NCBI GenBank assembly: GCA_017556505.1
Contig: JAFYNS010000143.1
Span: 1-36,652 of the forward strand
Reading direction: 5' to 3'
Origin: Bacillota bacterium
GTDB lineage: Bacteria; Bacillota; Clostridia; Peptostreptococcales; Anaerovoracaceae
DNA length: 36,652 nt
Shown: piece after piece, positions 17,009 through 28,904 of the stretch
Position numbering within the stretch: position 1 is the first letter of the stretch
Layout of the letters: each line of letters begins with the position of its first letter
Translations under genes and position numbers: made by a program
Notes under the pieces: model-generated
Databases searched by the model: none
What the model saw: only the letters and a program-made list of their open reading frames with translations
What the model was told of the DNA's origin: nothing

Positions 17009-17542
17009 TTAGTATGTAGTTTCCACTACACCGTAATTTCCGTCGTTTCTCTTGTAAACCACGCTTACGCTGTCGGTTTCCTGATCAAGATATACGAAGA
17101 AATTATGCTGCAGAAGTTCCATCTGCATTACTGCTTCGTCAACACTCATAGGCTGTAACTGGAACTTCTTGGACTTAACGATCTTAGCTTCTTCAGCCTG
17201 TTCTTCTTCCGGAATTTCCGGAATCATTTCGAATCTTACAGATTCACCAGACTTATTTCTCTTCTGCAGTTTACCTTTATATTTGGTCATCTGGCTGGAT
17301 AACTTGTCCGCTACGATGTCAATACTGTCAAAAACATCCTGTGATACATCTTCAGCTCTGAAAATAGTCCCCTTGGTTACGATGGTAGCTTCCATCTTTA
17401 CCTTGTCTCTTTCAGGATGAATCACTATATTTGCCTGTATATCGTCAGCAAAAAACTTTCCGAGCTTTTCGAATCTCTTGTCAATAGCATCCTGGATTTT
17501 TTCACTAATAGTAATGTTCTTTCCTGTAACGATAATCTTCAT
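17009..17542 (-). CDS. hpf: Ribosome hibernation promoting factor, long form
   Basis: Binds 30S subunits and pairs them into inactive 100S dimers during slow growth. The N-terminal S30AE domain begins MKIIVTGKNITISEKIQDAID; a linker leads to the C-terminal dimerisation domain (KSKKFQLQPMSVDEAVMQM, FFVYLDQETDSVSVVYKRNDG), so this is the long form. I start it at ATG 17542, preceded by a strong AAGGAGG; the frame is open further upstream but without support. The 177 residues are typical. It lies directly downstream of the raiA-type RNA and has its own promoter and terminator. Confidence 0.96.
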   Translation of the reverse strand: MKIIVTGKNITISEKIQDAIDKRFEKLGKFFADDIQANIVIHPERDKVKMEATIVTKGTIFRAEDVSQDVFDSIDIVADKLSSQMTKYKGKLQKRNKSGESVRFEMIPEIPEEEQAEEAKIVKSKKFQLQPMSVDEAVMQMELLQHNFFVYLDQETDSVSVVYKRNDGNYGVVETTY

Positions 17543-17643
17543 AATGATAACCTCCTTTTCGCCTGCACGACAGACACCTTTAAAAGAAAGGTCAGGCATT
17601 TGTACAGCCCAGTCGGTCTGTGCAAACTTTGTTTTACAATCAA

Positions 17644-19567: not shown

Positions 19568-21370
19568 CTACTGCAATCCCCCATAAAACCCGTTCAGTCT
19601 CTCCTGAAGTCCTGAGTTACGCTGTTTCCCCTGGTAATTGTCCACCATGGCATTGAGGTAATCCTGGCGGCCCACGATGTACACCTGTTTCCGGCTTCTG
19701 GTAATGGCGGTATACAGGAGATTTCTGGTAACCAGTGCCGGAGGGAACCAGGATACCGGCATGATTACCACCGGGAACTCACTGCCCTGGCTCTTGTGCA
19801 CTGTCACCGCATAGGCAAGCTCGATTTCATCCAGCTGAGTATAAGGATATTCCACCCATTTATCGTCGTCATATTCCACGGTAATCCGAGACAGCTCACG
19901 GTCGATAGCTGTAATGGTTCCGGTCTCACCGTTGAATACACCTTTTCCGTCCTTAGCTCCCGGTCTTTTGAATTCCAGGCGGTAATTATTCTTCAGCTGC
20001 ATGATACGGTCACCTACCCGGAAGGTTCTCTGTCCAAACTGGATTTCATCCACACCTTCGCGCGGCGGATTAAAAGTCTGCTGCAGGTAAATATTCAGGT
20101 TCTGGCTGCCCAGAATTCCCTTTTTCGTCGGTGTCAGCACCTGAACCTGGTCCAGCGGGAACTTTCCTGCCAGTTTCGTTACTTTATCAAGGGTTTCCTG
20201 CTGTTTGTCACCCTCTATTAAAACGAAGTCACCCCCAAATACCGGGTATCTTCCGTCGTTTACACGGTGGGCATTGACCACAATATTGCTTTCCTGTGCC
20301 TGTCTGAAAATCGCTGTCAGGTGTGCTGTGTGGAAGTAACCGCTTTCAATCAGGTCTTCCAGCACGCTGCCCGCTCCTACGGAAGGCAGCTGGTCTGCAT
20401 CCCCTACCAGAATCAGCCGGGTTCCCGGCTTCATGGCATCACAAAGAGCACCCATCAGCAGCAGATCCAGCATGGAGGCTTCGTCCACAATGACCGCATC
20501 CACATCCAAGGGATCTGCCTGGTTCTTTCCGAAGGCCATGGTATGGGCCCCCTCGTCGTAATAGTATTCCAGCAGGCGGTGTACAGTCGACGCGTACTGA
20601 CCGGTAGTTTCCATAATCCGCTTAGCCGCCCTGCCTGTGGGTGCAGCCACTGCCACCTTCTGCCCGCATCCGTTCAGCACACGGAGAATGGTGTTAATCA
20701 GTGTGGTTTTCCCTGTACCCGGTCCGCCGGTAATAATGGATACCCCGCTGGTCAAAACATCCCGGGCCGCAGCAAACTGTTCCTCTGACAGACGGATGCC
20801 GCCGGCTGCTTCTGCTTTGCAGAGAAGAAAATCCAGATTCTCACCGCAGGCCAGGGGCTTCATCATGTCCGGGTCAGCCAGATCGGCCAGCTTTCCGCAG
20901 ATAAGGCATTCCGCCCGGTAGTAGCCGTAAAAATAAACCACTGCCCGCTGATGGAGCATGGTCATCTGAACCATACCCATGAGGGCCATATCCTCCAGTA
21001 CATCCCGAACAAGGGATGAAGACAGGTCAAGATACTCTGCGACTTTTTCGCAGAGTTCATTTACCGGTGCAAAACTGTGGCCTTCCGCCACATAACTGCG
21101 CAGACCGAAGCGGATCCCGCTCTGAATCCGGTATTCGCTGTCTTTTTCAATTCCCAGCTTCTCCGCCGCCTCATCAATTTTCTTAAACCCCATATGGCTG
21201 AATTCATCCAGCAGCCAGTAAGGATTGTCTTCCGTCAGCGCGATAGCCGCCTCACCCACCAGATTGAAAATTTTAATGATGTAATAATTGGAAAAACCAA
21301 GTCCTCGTAAAAACAAGGTCACCTCTGGGGTGACCTGGCTTATTTTTGTGATGTTGTTTAATGTAACCAA
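19568..21370 (-). CDS. recD2: Short RecD2-type DNA helicase
   Basis: A superfamily 1B 5'-3' DNA helicase. Motif I GGPGTGKT is at 215-222; DEAS (Walker B), GDADQLPSVGAG and the C-terminal LLYTAITRSRK and AYAVTVHKSQGSEF motifs are all present, so ATPase activity is expected. The N-terminus begins in the helix-hairpin-helix region (LRGLGFSNYYIIKIF) and lacks the usual OB-fold domain: at 600 residues it is roughly 130-150 shorter than typical RecD2. The start is a TTG with AGAGG upstream, overlapping the cca-like gene by 13 bp, so no missing 5' part can lie in front. It looks like a stable short variant. Likely role is DNA repair. Confidence 0.88.
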   Translation of the reverse strand: MVTLNNITKISQVTPEVTLFLRGLGFSNYYIIKIFNLVGEAAIALTEDNPYWLLDEFSHMGFKKIDEAAEKLGIEKDSEYRIQSGIRFGLRSYVAEGHSFAPVNELCEKVAEYLDLSSSLVRDVLEDMALMGMVQMTMLHQRAVVYFYGYYRAECLICGKLADLADPDMMKPLACGENLDFLLCKAEAAGGIRLSEEQFAAARDVLTSGVSIITGGPGTGKTTLINTILRVLNGCGQKVAVAAPTGRAAKRIMETTGQYASTVHRLLEYYYDEGAHTMAFGKNQADPLDVDAVIVDEASMLDLLLMGALCDAMKPGTRLILVGDADQLPSVGAGSVLEDLIESGYFHTAHLTAIFRQAQESNIVVNAHRVNDGRYPVFGGDFVLIEGDKQQETLDKVTKLAGKFPLDQVQVLTPTKKGILGSQNLNIYLQQTFNPPREGVDEIQFGQRTFRVGDRIMQLKNNYRLEFKRPGAKDGKGVFNGETGTITAIDRELSRITVEYDDDKWVEYPYTQLDEIELAYAVTVHKSQGSEFPVVIMPVSWFPPALVTRNLLYTAITRSRKQVYIVGRQDYLNAMVDNYQGKQRNSGLQERLNGFYGGLQ

Positions 21371-22638
21371 TGTACGCCTCTCGTCCAGGTTAAAAACTTG
21401 AATTTCTTATACTTATTGGCCAGTTCGAGCAGATCCTTGCGGGTATTCTTACGCGGATGTACGTGCATCTCTTCTACCAGCATGGTCAGCATCTTCGCTG
21501 CATCTTCCGGGCTGCCGCAGATGCCGGCTTCCATCAGATCATTGGCATCGACAGCCAGCTCATCTTCAAAGATCGGCTCGCGATACATTTTGATTTCTTC
21601 CAGCATATAGATCTTGCTCTTGATCTTTGTTTCGTTGAAGTGTTCAAAAACGATTCTCTGTGCCTTTTCCAGGCTTGCCATGTAGTTATATCGGTCCCAT
21701 CCTCGGGCATAGATGAACTTTTTCAGATCCGGCTTCTGTGCCACGAAATACAGTTTCGCCATATCCTTGGCCGCATCGATGAAGTGCTGGCGCAGAGGTT
21801 CCTCAAACTGCAGCTTGTCGATGGAATCGAAAGCTTTCTTTTTATCGATGCAGGTGTAGAGAAGACCCATGCGGCGTTCCGGTACCTGCTGTGTCTTATC
21901 CACATTTTCACAGAGGGTGGTCAGGTCAGACATTTCTCTCTTGGTCAGATGTGCCACTGCATTTTCTCCGAGAACCACCTTCAGCAGACCGGTATCCATC
22001 AGCATGTTCAGACCCTTTCCAGCATGAGGAGCTCCCATCAGGCCCAGAAGTTCGTCTCGTACTTTCTTCATATCCACGTTTTCCAGAAGTCCGTAGTTGG
22101 CACAGATTGCATCATACACACTCTTGTGCAGGTCAAAACCGTACTGTGCAGCATAGCGGAGAGCACGCATCATCTGAATTGGCTGTTCCTTAAACTGAAC
22201 CTCTGCATCACCCACAGTTCTCACCAGCTTCTTACGAATGTCTTCACGGCCTTCATACGGGTCTGCAATCTTATAAGGGCTGTCTGCAATTGCATTGATG
22301 GTGAAGTCCTTTCTGGCCATTTCCGTCTCAATGGTTCCGCCGTTTCTGTATGGCGCCACGTCGGCGATAATGCCTTCTTCGCCCAGGAAAGTTCCGTCCT
22401 TATCATAAACTTCTTCAATAAATTCCAGACGTACAATTCCGAACTTTTCGCTGATAACCTCGCCTTCCGGGAAAAGTTCCTTCAGTTTTTCTCCGCCTGC
22501 GGAGGTAACAATATCCCAGCCATAGGGATCCTCACCAAGCAGGGTTCCACGGACACAGTCACCTGCAGCATAAGCCTCAAAACCGGCAGTTTCCAGAGCT
22601 TTCATTATTTTGTTTACTTCTTTTGGCAGTTTAATCAT
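21358..22638 (-). CDS. CCA tRNA nucleotidyltransferase-like protein with altered active site
   Basis: The 426-residue protein has the bacterial class II CCA-adding/poly(A) polymerase fold: a GDCVRGTLLGEDPY start, RKDFTINAIA and a RALRYAAQYGF segment. However, key residues differ. The metal-binding DxD reads G40-W-D42, so one carboxylate is missing. The GGAVRD motif reads AGDCVRG. The EDxxR motif that selects CTP and ATP reads EQPIQ. The DNA at these codons reads cleanly (GGC, CAG). Either the enzyme is inactive for CCA addition or it uses another chemistry or substrate. It sits between yhaM and recD2 with close spacing. The family call is firm; the activity is doubtful. Confidence 0.82.
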   Translation of the reverse strand: MIKLPKEVNKIMKALETAGFEAYAAGDCVRGTLLGEDPYGWDIVTSAGGEKLKELFPEGEVISEKFGIVRLEFIEEVYDKDGTFLGEEGIIADVAPYRNGGTIETEMARKDFTINAIADSPYKIADPYEGREDIRKKLVRTVGDAEVQFKEQPIQMMRALRYAAQYGFDLHKSVYDAICANYGLLENVDMKKVRDELLGLMGAPHAGKGLNMLMDTGLLKVVLGENAVAHLTKREMSDLTTLCENVDKTQQVPERRMGLLYTCIDKKKAFDSIDKLQFEEPLRQHFIDAAKDMAKLYFVAQKPDLKKFIYARGWDRYNYMASLEKAQRIVFEHFNETKIKSKIYMLEEIKMYREPIFEDELAVDANDLMEAGICGSPEDAAKMLTMLVEEMHVHPRKNTRKDLLELANKYKKFKFLTWTRGVHWLH

Positions 22639-22687: not shown

Positions 22688-23650
22688 TTATATATTCGCC
22701 GGCTTATACAGCTTGCGGTTATCCAGCGTCCACACACGGTCGCTGAATTCGCCAGGCTGCGTTGCTTCCAGAGCTGTCTGCATGTCAAACATTCTGGCAT
22801 CCAGAATATCCAGATAATGCAGCACCTCTGCTTCCGGGAACAGCGGTTTCTTCGGGCTACCGAATTCCGGTTCGTAATGGTGTGCCAGAATCATATGTTC
22901 CAGCATCAGTGCCTTTTCCCGGTCCATGCCCATTTCAAGTGCCATACGGTCTACTGTTTTCACGCCCTGAATCAGGTGGCCCAGCATCTGTCCTTCGAAG
23001 GAATATCCGCTGGCAATTCCGTCCACATCTGCGTCAATTTCATTGAGCTTTTCCATATCGTGAAGAATCACGCCGATCAGTACCAGGTCCGGATTCAGAT
23101 TGGTGTATACCTCACATACACGCTGTCCGGTCATGAGCATACGCTTGGTATGGTACAGCAGGCCGCCCAGCTGTGCATGGTGATTCCTGGATGCGGCAGG
23201 ATAATACAGCAGCCGCTCTCTGTTTTCCGTCAAAACCCGCAGCGCCAGGGCTCTCAGTTCCTCATCCTTCAGTGCGGAAGCTACGCCAAAGATGTAATCA
23301 TACATTTCCTGCGGATCTTCCGGTGCCGCTTTCACGAAGTCACCGATAACCATACCGTCCTGATCGTTTGCCTTCCGGATCCGCTGTACGCGGAACTGAA
23401 GCTGACCAGCCCACTCTGTAATGACTGCCTTAACCTTCACGATTTCTTTTTCTTTTATGTCAATGAGAGCCGGATATTCTCCATCGCTGACATCCCATTT
23501 CTTACCGCTCAGTTCCCCGGTCTTATCTCCGAGAGTGATGTCCAGATACTGTTTTCCATTGGAGCCGGTCTTTACCGCACAGGCCTTCACCATGAAAAAC
23601 TCCACCACTTCCTGGTCCTTTCTTAAATCTTTAATATATAATTCTTTCAT
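22688..23650 (-). CDS. yhaM: YhaM-type 3'-5' exoribonuclease
   Basis: It combines an N-terminal OB-fold nucleic-acid binding domain (about 1-110) with a C-terminal HD metal-dependent domain, recognised by NHHAQLGGLLYHT and LHDMEK. Characterised relatives degrade RNA, and sometimes single-stranded DNA, from the 3' end. I use ATG 23650 (MKELYIKDLRK), which matches the family start; the ribosome site GAGG is about 14 bases away, so initiation may be weak. This gives 320 residues, the expected size. It is the first gene of the operon with cca-like and recD2. Confidence 0.88.
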   Translation of the reverse strand: MKELYIKDLRKDQEVVEFFMVKACAVKTGSNGKQYLDITLGDKTGELSGKKWDVSDGEYPALIDIKEKEIVKVKAVITEWAGQLQFRVQRIRKANDQDGMVIGDFVKAAPEDPQEMYDYIFGVASALKDEELRALALRVLTENRERLLYYPAASRNHHAQLGGLLYHTKRMLMTGQRVCEVYTNLNPDLVLIGVILHDMEKLNEIDADVDGIASGYSFEGQMLGHLIQGVKTVDRMALEMGMDREKALMLEHMILAHHYEPEFGSPKKPLFPEAEVLHYLDILDARMFDMQTALEATQPGEFSDRVWTLDNRKLYKPANI

Positions 23651-23693
23651 ATTTTCAATACCATCCTCAAACAGAATATAATCTTCCGTTATC

Positions 23694-23722
23694 ATTATAC
23701 ACGAAAACCTCTTCAACTGCAA
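23694..23722 (-). promoter_or_regulatory. Proximal promoter of yhaM
   Basis: Minus-strand TTGCAG (23717-23722), 17-bp spacer, TATAAT (23694-23699), giving a leader of about 35-40 bases. Confidence 0.72.
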
Positions 23723-27007: not shown

Positions 27008-27508
27008 ATGGCTGAAACTTTTGTGCAAAACGAAAGTATTGAGACCGTCATCCAGCGTTACAAAGGAACCGTCTACAGTGTGGCTCTGTCCTACGTGAGC
27101 AGCCGTGACGATGCCGACGACATTTTCCAGGAAGTGTTCCTGATTTACTTCAGAACCAATCCGCAGTTTAATGACGAAGAGCATCGAAAAGCATGGCTCA
27201 TCCGGACCACCATCAACTGTTCCAAGCGTGTAGTAGACAGTACTTACCGCAAGCGTACGGTCCCTATGGACGAAATGGAAGAAGAGTCATTTGAATTTCA
27301 GACTAAGGAAGAGAACGCAGTCTACGTAGCACTGCAGGCCCTTCCGGAGAAATATCGAACTGTTCTCCACCTTTTTTATTTCGAGGACATGTCCATTGAT
27401 ATGATCTGTAAGGTTCTGGACCTGAAAGCCAGCACCGTGAAAGTTCAGCTCATGCGCGGCCGTGAAATGATGAAGGAAAAACTGAAGGAGGAAGGCTATA
27501 ATGACTGA
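27008..27508 (+). CDS. ECF-type RNA polymerase sigma factor
   Basis: A 166-residue sigma-70 family factor with only regions 2 and 4. Region 2 covers about 18-90 (YKGTVYSVALSYVSSRDDAD, DDIFQEVFL) and region 4 about 110-160 (LPEKYRTVLHLFYFEDMS, then a helix-turn-helix with ASTVKVQLMRGREMM). The start has TAAGGAGG. Its last codons overlap the next gene by 8 bp, a sign of translational coupling with an anti-sigma factor. The signal it answers to is unknown; the neighbouring divergent two-component system may share it. Confidence 0.93.
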   Translation: MAETFVQNESIETVIQRYKGTVYSVALSYVSSRDDADDIFQEVFLIYFRTNPQFNDEEHRKAWLIRTTINCSKRVVDSTYRKRTVPMDEMEEESFEFQTKEENAVYVALQALPEKYRTVLHLFYFEDMSIDMICKVLDLKASTVKVQLMRGREMMKEKLKEEGYND

Positions 27509-28904
27509 CGAAATATTTCGCGATGGATTTTGCGACGATATCTTTCGCAGTATGAAAATGCAGATGGAGCCTTCTGACGATGTAGTCGGAAGTCTGCTCG
27601 CAAAGATTGCTGCAGAGGCACCTTCTCAGGTAACAGAAAACGATAACGTGATTCCGTTCCGCCCTCAGGCTCAGCCTGAAATCACCGGAACAGCCGCATC
27701 CATTGCAGCAGTGGAATCCGCCCCAAGAAAACATTTTGCAAATAACCGAAAGAAAACGAACAAATCCATATGGTACTACGGCACAGCAGTTGCGGCCAGC
27801 ATCATTGTTATGATATCTACATTTGCGTTACTGGGACCGGACGGCGATGACGCCAGCGGCGTGCATGACCTGTTTGAACAGGCGGTTGGTCCGAATACAC
27901 AGATTGTCGGCATCGATAACCAGGGAAATGAAGATCAGACACCGGTTGGTGATGATGAAACCGTTCCTCCTGTATCCGGCGAAGAGAATTCCTCTTCCGA
28001 TGAAACCCCGGATGTTTCCGACAATGAAGGTGACGTACAGCAGCCTGAAGTTACCGGCAATAAGACCGATAACGAAGGTAAAACCGATACACCGCAGCAG
28101 AACGGAAAGTCTGACGGAAAGGACAGCAGCAATGGCAGCGACGGCAGTGAGCCTGGAAAGACGCCTTCTGACAAAGATACTTCCGATAAACCTGCTCCGG
28201 ATCATTCCGACAACGGCAAGGTAACTCCTGGTGCAGAAGGCACTTCTGCAATTCCATGGACCAATGAAATCATTGGTACCAGCCAGGTTGCTTCCATCTC
28301 CGTATCCGACGGCAACTATGTGGTTGACGGCACAGCCGTTTCCCGCTCTGATGTGGGTGAAACCATTGAAGTAGTAACCATCGCCCTTCCGCAGACTTCT
28401 ACTACCAATGCAGCAGAAGTAAAAGCGAAGGTTCGTGAAGTGAAAGGTGTATCCAGAGCAGCCATGGTTGCACTGGATGTGGAAGGTTTCGACCAGCCAC
28501 TGGTTTATGCCAATACAGATTATGCACCGTCTACTCTGGGTCAGCTTGTTTCTGATCTGGGGCTGGAAAAGAAGACTTCTTTCTCCGGCAATGTACGCTG
28601 TCAGATTTCCATGGTAGGATATTCCTCCAATCACAGCTACAGTGTAGACACTGCAGAAGCCGCATGGACTTATCTGCTGAATCAGGGCAGTGCACAGCGC
28701 GCAGCTGACAGCAATTTCTCCAACGGAAATGCCAAGGCACTGTTTACTTCCGATTCCAACCAGACAGGATCGCAGATTCAGTTTGGTGTCAGCGACAGCG
28801 GCTATCTCTATGTATCCCTGATGGGTAGGAAGCATACGTTTAATATCGGTTCTGAAAATGCAAAGGGCTTTATCGAATATGTAACCGGGGAGACTCTGGA
28901 ATAA
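27501..28904 (+). CDS. Single-pass membrane protein, probable anti-sigma factor
   Basis: The 467-residue protein has a cytoplasmic N-terminus (1-88) beginning with acidic and amphipathic helices, one membrane helix (about 91-111), a low-complexity Asp/Ser/Gly/Pro/Lys/Thr-rich external linker (about 140-260) and a C-terminal external domain of about 200 residues. I do not recognise that domain. Coupling to the ECF sigma gene and the topology fit a sigma-sequestering protein with an outside sensor, but there is no clear zinc-binding HxxxCxxC motif, so the sigma-binding mode is unclear. The linker could cross the cell wall. The product could instead be a wall-associated target of the sigma factor. 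Confidence 0.65.
   Translation: MTDEIFRDGFCDDIFRSMKMQMEPSDDVVGSLLAKIAAEAPSQVTENDNVIPFRPQAQPEITGTAASIAAVESAPRKHFANNRKKTNKSIWYYGTAVAASIIVMISTFALLGPDGDDASGVHDLFEQAVGPNTQIVGIDNQGNEDQTPVGDDETVPPVSGEENSSSDETPDVSDNEGDVQQPEVTGNKTDNEGKTDTPQQNGKSDGKDSSNGSDGSEPGKTPSDKDTSDKPAPDHSDNGKVTPGAEGTSAIPWTNEIIGTSQVASISVSDGNYVVDGTAVSRSDVGETIEVVTIALPQTSTTNAAEVKAKVREVKGVSRAAMVALDVEGFDQPLVYANTDYAPSTLGQLVSDLGLEKKTSFSGNVRCQISMVGYSSNHSYSVDTAEAAWTYLLNQGSAQRAADSNFSNGNAKALFTSDSNQTGSQIQFGVSDSGYLYVSLMGRKHTFNIGSENAKGFIEYVTGETLE

Follow-up and report, generated by a model that had tools for sequence, protein, structure and literature searches.

A CCA-Enzyme-Like Gene That Has Lost Its Active Site and Was Probably Retained as a Non-Catalytic Protein in an Anaerovoracaceae Genome

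The CCA-Like Gene and Its Altered Motifs

We analyzed a stretch of 36,652 nucleotides (the window; positions 1 to 36,652 of contig JAFYNS010000143.1, assembly GCA_017556505.1) from a gut bacterium of the phylum Bacillota, family Anaerovoracaceae, here genome G000. The window carries the gene order yhaM, CCA-like gene, recD2, and the middle gene, the subject of this report, resembles the genes of CCA-adding tRNA nucleotidyltransferases. Its parts are the following:

21358..22638, reverse strand: CCA-enzyme-like gene, active site lost (ATG start, open reading frame of 426 aa)
22546..22566, reverse strand: AGDCVRG, residues 25-31, (V)GG.VRD in relatives (codons and alignment)
22513..22521, reverse strand: G-W-D, residues 40-42, the metal-binding D.D of relatives (codons and 1MIV register)
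22330..22353, reverse strand: site of the flexible loop deletion, about residues 96-103 (alignments)
22306..22314, reverse strand: R-K-D, residues 109-111, R-R-D in relatives (codons and alignment)
22174..22188, reverse strand: EQPIQ, residues 151-155, the base-selecting EDxxR of relatives (codons and alignment)
21970..22140, reverse strand: RNA-binding neck PF12627, residues 167-223, still exceeding the Pfam cut-off
21361..21966, reverse strand: C-terminal body and tail, residues 225-426, with a basic tail at the end; the more constrained part in degenerate relatives

The three motif changes described in the initial annotation can all be read codon by codon: A25 G26 D27 C28 V29 R30 G31 stands where relatives have VGG.VRD, G40 (GGC) W41 D42 where they have D.D, and E151 Q152 P153 I154 Q155 where they have EDPLR. 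Alignment with the solved CCA-adding enzyme 1MIV gives the same register at G27, D31, D40, and D42. In addition, the window protein has a deletion around residues 97-105, where relatives carry the flexible loop (GxYxDxRRPDxVxF..IEEDLxRR). Besides this loop it has lost the first catalytic aspartate, the glycine that contacts the nucleoside triphosphate (NTP), and the D and R that select the base; D42 and D93 are retained. The roles assigned to these motifs, metal binding and the selection of cytidine or adenosine triphosphate (CTP or ATP), agree with the sections of published work that treat them, where motif A places the catalytic metals (PMC7432833), EDxxR serves CTP and ATP as their amino-acid template, and the flexible loop shifts the nucleotide pocket from C to A (both PMC7014341).

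The window protein still matches PF01743 (the PolyA_pol head; 53.3 bits, cut-off 23) and PF12627 (the RNA-binding neck; 38.4 bits, cut-off 22), and NF009814 (CCA tRNA nucleotidyltransferase) over residues 8-409, at 151.3 bits, which is under its cut-off of 290. It thus shares head, neck, whole-length profile match, and cassette position with the class II CCA-adding enzymes (NF009814/PRK13299; 1MIV), but those enzymes keep the loop and the residues for metal binding, NTP contact, and base selection, which the window protein has lost. An AlphaFold2 model had a mean predicted local distance difference test score of 39.8, too low for a fold search.

We searched 61 relatives and then 296 genomes of the bacterial family; the proteins at the resident locus that scored more than 80 bits against the window protein (110 proteins; those under 80 bits were dropped) were aligned and scored at 11 key positions. 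A sequencing error can be ruled out: a different metagenome-assembled genome (G002, locus L005, 98% identity) has identical residues in the listed motifs, and the pattern of loss is common to congeners at 70-98% identity to the window protein, so that a changed or lost activity, as initially proposed, would be the better account. All four proteins found in the window genus have lost key residues; they keep 5 or 6 of the 11, and D40 is glycine in 4/4. These losses are not due to chance: all 11 key residues are intact in 28 of the 110 resident-locus proteins. With metal aspartates and the base-choosing D and R gone, proteins of the window genus almost certainly add no CCA, judging by the established chemistry of the family. 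The first DxD aspartate was replaced by glycine in g1, in G154 of g88, and in four proteins of g105, and the NTP-contact glycine by D or E across many genera; both replacements seem to recur (genera are labelled g, genomes G, and loci L).

Second Enzymes and the States of the Locus in the Family

The window genome (2.4 Mb in 198 contigs, 94% complete) contains two PF01743 proteins. The second, on contig C41 and not on the window contig, has an HD domain, 11/11 key residues, and the loop region. Among the tRNA genes, called by ARAGORN within loci located by the Rfam tRNA model, 26 of 27 distinct genes encode CCA, and the last one is cut by a contig end. Because the tRNAs encode CCA and a second intact enzyme is present, the window copy is not needed for CCA; any need for CCA addition in this genome is limited to repair, which another protein can do. 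The initial annotation had suggested looking for a second, canonical cca gene and for tRNA genes without encoded CCA, and would have been contradicted by a genome that had no other CCA enzyme although its tRNAs needed one; both the lack of another enzyme and the need for CCA addition are ruled out here. Encoded CCA does not distinguish the canonical from the degenerate state, since G006, canonical and single-copy, also encodes CCA in 34/34 distinct tRNA sequences (30 loci kept of 42 matches).

Two genes in one genome, together with a deleted flexible loop, which the relevant part of PMC7014341 presents as a hallmark of bacterial CC-adding enzymes, might suggest that the window protein is the CC-adding member of a split CC/A pair. 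However, bacterial CC-adding enzymes keep the core motifs A to E, according to the same account, whereas DxD and EDxxR are broken in the window protein; moreover, the second copy has canonical motifs and the loop region, and the tRNAs encode CCA. A CC-adding function is thus improbable in the extreme.

Across the family, the resident locus was found in three states. It is canonical in 33 genomes, with at least 10 of the 11 key residues in place, and 32 of these have the canonical resident as their sole PF01743 protein (the exception is G133). A score of 10 was reached by five of the 33, of which three carry ENPIR; in the fourth the E of EDxxR is replaced by Q, and in the fifth the first D of DxD by E. 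In L078, L189, and L190 (G009, G155, and G178), which are single-copy and canonical except for ENPIR in place of EDPLR, base choice may be altered. In 73 genomes the resident is degenerate (a score of 9 or less, in some through a lost or truncated part; G034 and G243, cut by contig ends, are uninformative on head loss), and 63 of them were found to have a second enzyme. Search tables, one of which does not cover G204, G228, and G082, served to type the presence of second copies; the row G289x represents an additional copy in a genome with a second enzyme, and that genome was counted once. Another three genomes, which belong to g88 without exception, have a second copy already at a score of 10. 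In the third state the gene is deleted: among genomes chosen for its absence, yhaM is directly followed by recD2 in 30/30, including a congener of the window genome (G003).

Of 54 second copies examined, 51 have 11/11 key residues and three have 10. The degenerate copy and a second enzyme occur together so often (63/73 genomes) that the former could regulate the latter or act as its scaffold, for example in a heterodimer. Two observations argue against this: even single genera (g88, g87, and g5) contain second copies of unlike types, of which there are at least two, H and E, and this is ill-suited to a dedicated pair; and in G000 the contig with the second gene is not that of the window. We consider such a partnership quite unlikely.

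Degeneration of the resident enzyme arose repeatedly in the family. On a tree of YhaM and RecD2 (87 rows; a quick tree without a mixture model, with long branches coming together at G009/G238 and at G158/G191), the canonical and degenerate states require at least 13 changes. Within g88, G188 is canonical and has no second copy, G096, G215, and G234 have an H-type copy, and G248 and G154 an E-type copy; key-residue scores in the g88 genomes with a second copy run from 10 down to 7. Within g105, only G223 is canonical, and it has no second copy; its five congeners are all degenerate and carry an E-type one. When independent pairs were tested on starred branches, an average of 5-6 pairs ran in the expected direction and none ran against it.

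The cassette gene of g77, g81, and g9 has lost its head and kept the C-terminal part. C-terminal-only CCA-like copies of 267-328 aa were also seen outside the yhaM-recD2 cassette, at L232, L233, L234, L235, and L236 (G028, G204, G228, G082, and G289); in L232, L233, and L235 a conserved open frame of 501 aa lies just upstream.

Constraint Moves from the Head to the C-Terminal Half

A gene made superfluous by a second enzyme could be a decaying relic, functionless after its replacement and heading for deletion. The clean deletions in 30/30 genomes chosen for the gene's absence, the graded decay inside g88, and the higher ratios of nonsynonymous to synonymous substitution rates (dN/dS) in pairs of head-less copies from g25 and g77 (0.161 and 0.145) are what a relic would show. 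The full-length degenerate copies, however, are under purifying selection and are not drifting. Between G000 and G002 we counted 61 synonymous and 8 nonsynonymous changes (dN/dS 0.033), in a divergence that postdates the loss, although selection could in general partly predate loss; six other full-length degenerate pairs with a synonymous divergence (dS) below 1.5 gave dN/dS of 0.019-0.084 (pairs with higher dS were computed but not relied on), and 60 degenerate rows retain an open frame of 415-505 aa. Since the window gene is under purifying selection, a changed activity suits it better than one simply lost, the two outcomes that the initial annotation had left side by side.

The distribution of this constraint also departs from that of active enzymes. 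In known enzymes, the catalytic core is better conserved than the C-terminal body and tail, as the part of PMC8563995 on this point describes, and our canonical rows mostly follow that pattern, with the head better conserved than the C-terminal part. In a first test, limited to rows with full YhaM and RecD2, C-terminal identity exceeded head identity in 0/12 canonical and 20/26 degenerate pairs. In an earlier pair comparison, the opposite sign had appeared in four of the seven canonical pairs (two from g8 and one each from g53 and g104), and the first test covered only rows with full flanks; we therefore ran it again with every full-length row (31 canonical and 60 degenerate). C-terminal identity was the higher in 23 of 30 degenerate vs 3 of 15 canonical disjoint pairs (p values for this test ignore relatedness), and two other choices of border gave 23/30 vs 3-4/15. 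At a flank identity of 0.8-0.9, C-terminal conservation was 0.71 in degenerate and 0.47 in canonical pairs (87-row subset; 11 canonical pairs, drawn from few genera). The C-terminal half is therefore more conserved than in canonical proteins at equal flank divergence, which goes beyond a mere relaxation of the head and speaks further against a decaying relic; we consider that explanation unlikely.

Eighteen alignment columns are conserved in the canonical proteins (31 rows, 20 genera) and lost in the degenerate ones (60 rows, 12 genera); 16 are in the head and neck, and two are tail glycines. Glycine 27 is lost in 60/60 degenerate proteins and is D or E in 34 of them (partly by definition, since position 27 is among the 11 scored). 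Its loss, and the glycine at D40 throughout the window genus, argue against nucleotidyl transfer, nucleotide binding, or hydrolysis in a residual or altered form, for which one could cite D42 and D93 in the window protein and the two DxD aspartates kept by g91 and g87; such an activity is very unlikely in the window protein.

The Cassette and the Proposed Role of the Resident Protein

The neighbors of the CCA-like gene in the cassette are:

22688..23722, reverse strand: YhaM-like 3′-5′ exoribonuclease, upstream neighbor in the conserved cassette (HD domain and synteny; NF010007 at 279.7 bits, under the cut-off of 460)
19568..21370, reverse strand: RecD2 helicase, downstream neighbor (TIGR01448 above cut-off; TTG start, overlapping the CCA-like gene by 13 bases)

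Nearly all resident-locus proteins (104 of 110, with many loci reaching contig edges) are encoded next to yhaM and/or recD2, whether canonical or not, and this neighborhood, shared by both states, points to vertical inheritance of the locus. The gene overlap is unlikely to be the cause of frame retention, since clean deletions exist. The TIGR01448 match of the window RecD2 begins only at position 135, so that about 130 N-terminal residues are missing; a short RecD2 (frames of about 580-685 aa vs 730-875) is common to g1, g105, g88, g20, g59, and G238. It can be ruled out as a companion of degeneration, since the canonical genes of G067, G188, and G223 have a short RecD2 beside them as well. 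Two genes downstream of the cassette (window 17009-17599) is an S30AE/HPF ribosome-hibernation gene, and the relevant portion of PMC11347170 reports hpf mRNA as a target of the Staphylococcus YhaM. Elsewhere in the window, at 27501-28904 on the forward strand, a 467-aa open reading frame with no Pfam match at 1e-5 directly follows a gene for an ECF-type sigma factor.

We propose that the ancestor of the window gene was the family's resident CCA-adding enzyme, encoded in the yhaM-cca-recD2 cassette; that CCA repair passed to a second, intact tRNA nucleotidyltransferase whose gene lies elsewhere in the genome; and that the resident protein would then have lost nucleotide binding and catalysis and been kept by selection as a non-catalytic protein, whose C-terminal body and tail may act as an RNA-binding adaptor (for tRNA or RNA 3′ ends) without adding nucleotides. 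To this reading, in which the window gene encodes a protein without catalytic activity that probably binds RNA and was exapted once another enzyme had assumed CCA repair, we give a probability of about 0.6. That the gene is kept for some other role is likely; that this role is that of an RNA-binding adaptor is somewhat less so, though still probable, RNA binding being suggested by the homologous domain. In active enzymes the C-terminal half grips the tRNA and measures from its elbow, as the passages on this half in PMC4810234 and PMC8563995 describe, and it is because the most constrained part of the degenerate proteins corresponds to this half that we favor an adaptor. RNA 3′ ends are a plausible setting for it because YhaM trims them: in Streptococcus pyogenes, YhaM trims the 3′ ends of RNase Y fragments, according to the relevant part of PMC9040804, which also describes an interaction of Bacillus subtilis YhaM with the replisome protein DnaC. 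Cooperation with the neighboring YhaM is speculative. It is doubtful whether residents were repeatedly converted to RNA 3′-end adaptors that work with YhaM, each after another CCA enzyme had freed the resident, with the acidic residues at the NTP-contact glycine blocking nucleotide binding.

Several observations weigh against the reading of the window gene as an exapted RNA-binding protein. In 10 of the 73 degenerate genomes the searches revealed no second enzyme (G002, G202, G238, G243, G286, G302, G148, G028, G204, and G228; assemblies 77-94% complete), among which G302 has an unlisted second match in one search, and G204 and G228 are absent from one typing table. The resident gene is dispensable and has no obligate partnership with YhaM, since yhaM and recD2 persist without it. 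G021 shows the opposite truncation, with the head kept and the C-terminal end lost, outside the cassette, and the loss of two tail glycines suggests that tRNA binding may be altered. Related rows are not independent of one another, and the median p of the independent-pair tests is only 0.03-0.06, by threshold. Finally, several degenerate genera, g91 and g87 among them, retain the two DxD aspartates, and residual activity would be less firmly excluded there than in the window genus.

Nucleotidyltransferase-fold pseudoenzymes, split CC/A systems, and duplicate CCA enzymes are already known. By its homology and its lost catalytic residues the window protein belongs with the pseudoenzymes of the nucleotidyltransferase superfamily, and it is maintained by selection (dN/dS 0.033). 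The DZF domains of NF45 and NF90, as PMC11952958 describes them in the part that concerns us, are likewise nucleotidyltransferase relatives without key catalytic residues that serve RNA-binding proteins, but these are animal proteins of another branch with known dimerization, whereas the window protein retains the C-terminal tRNA-binding half. Dictyostelium also has two tRNA nucleotidyltransferases where one suffices, with horizontal transfer suspected, but both of its enzymes are CCA-adding and active, as stated in the corresponding part of PMC7432833, whereas here the resident one is broken. Searches of the open-access literature on inactive or paralogous bacterial tRNA nucleotidyltransferases brought up no description of a resident bacterial CCA enzyme repeatedly turned into a conserved non-enzyme.

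For annotation, the label "CCA tRNA nucleotidyltransferase" is not to be trusted at face value at this locus. CCA enzymes are textbook housekeeping polymerases, and this family offers a replicated natural experiment on the origin of pseudoenzymes: the resident enzyme was displaced many times, and the displaced copy, though without its active site, was often kept, with selection mainly on the tRNA-binding half. With sister genomes in canonical, decaying, dead, and deleted states, the order and the cost of the loss become testable.
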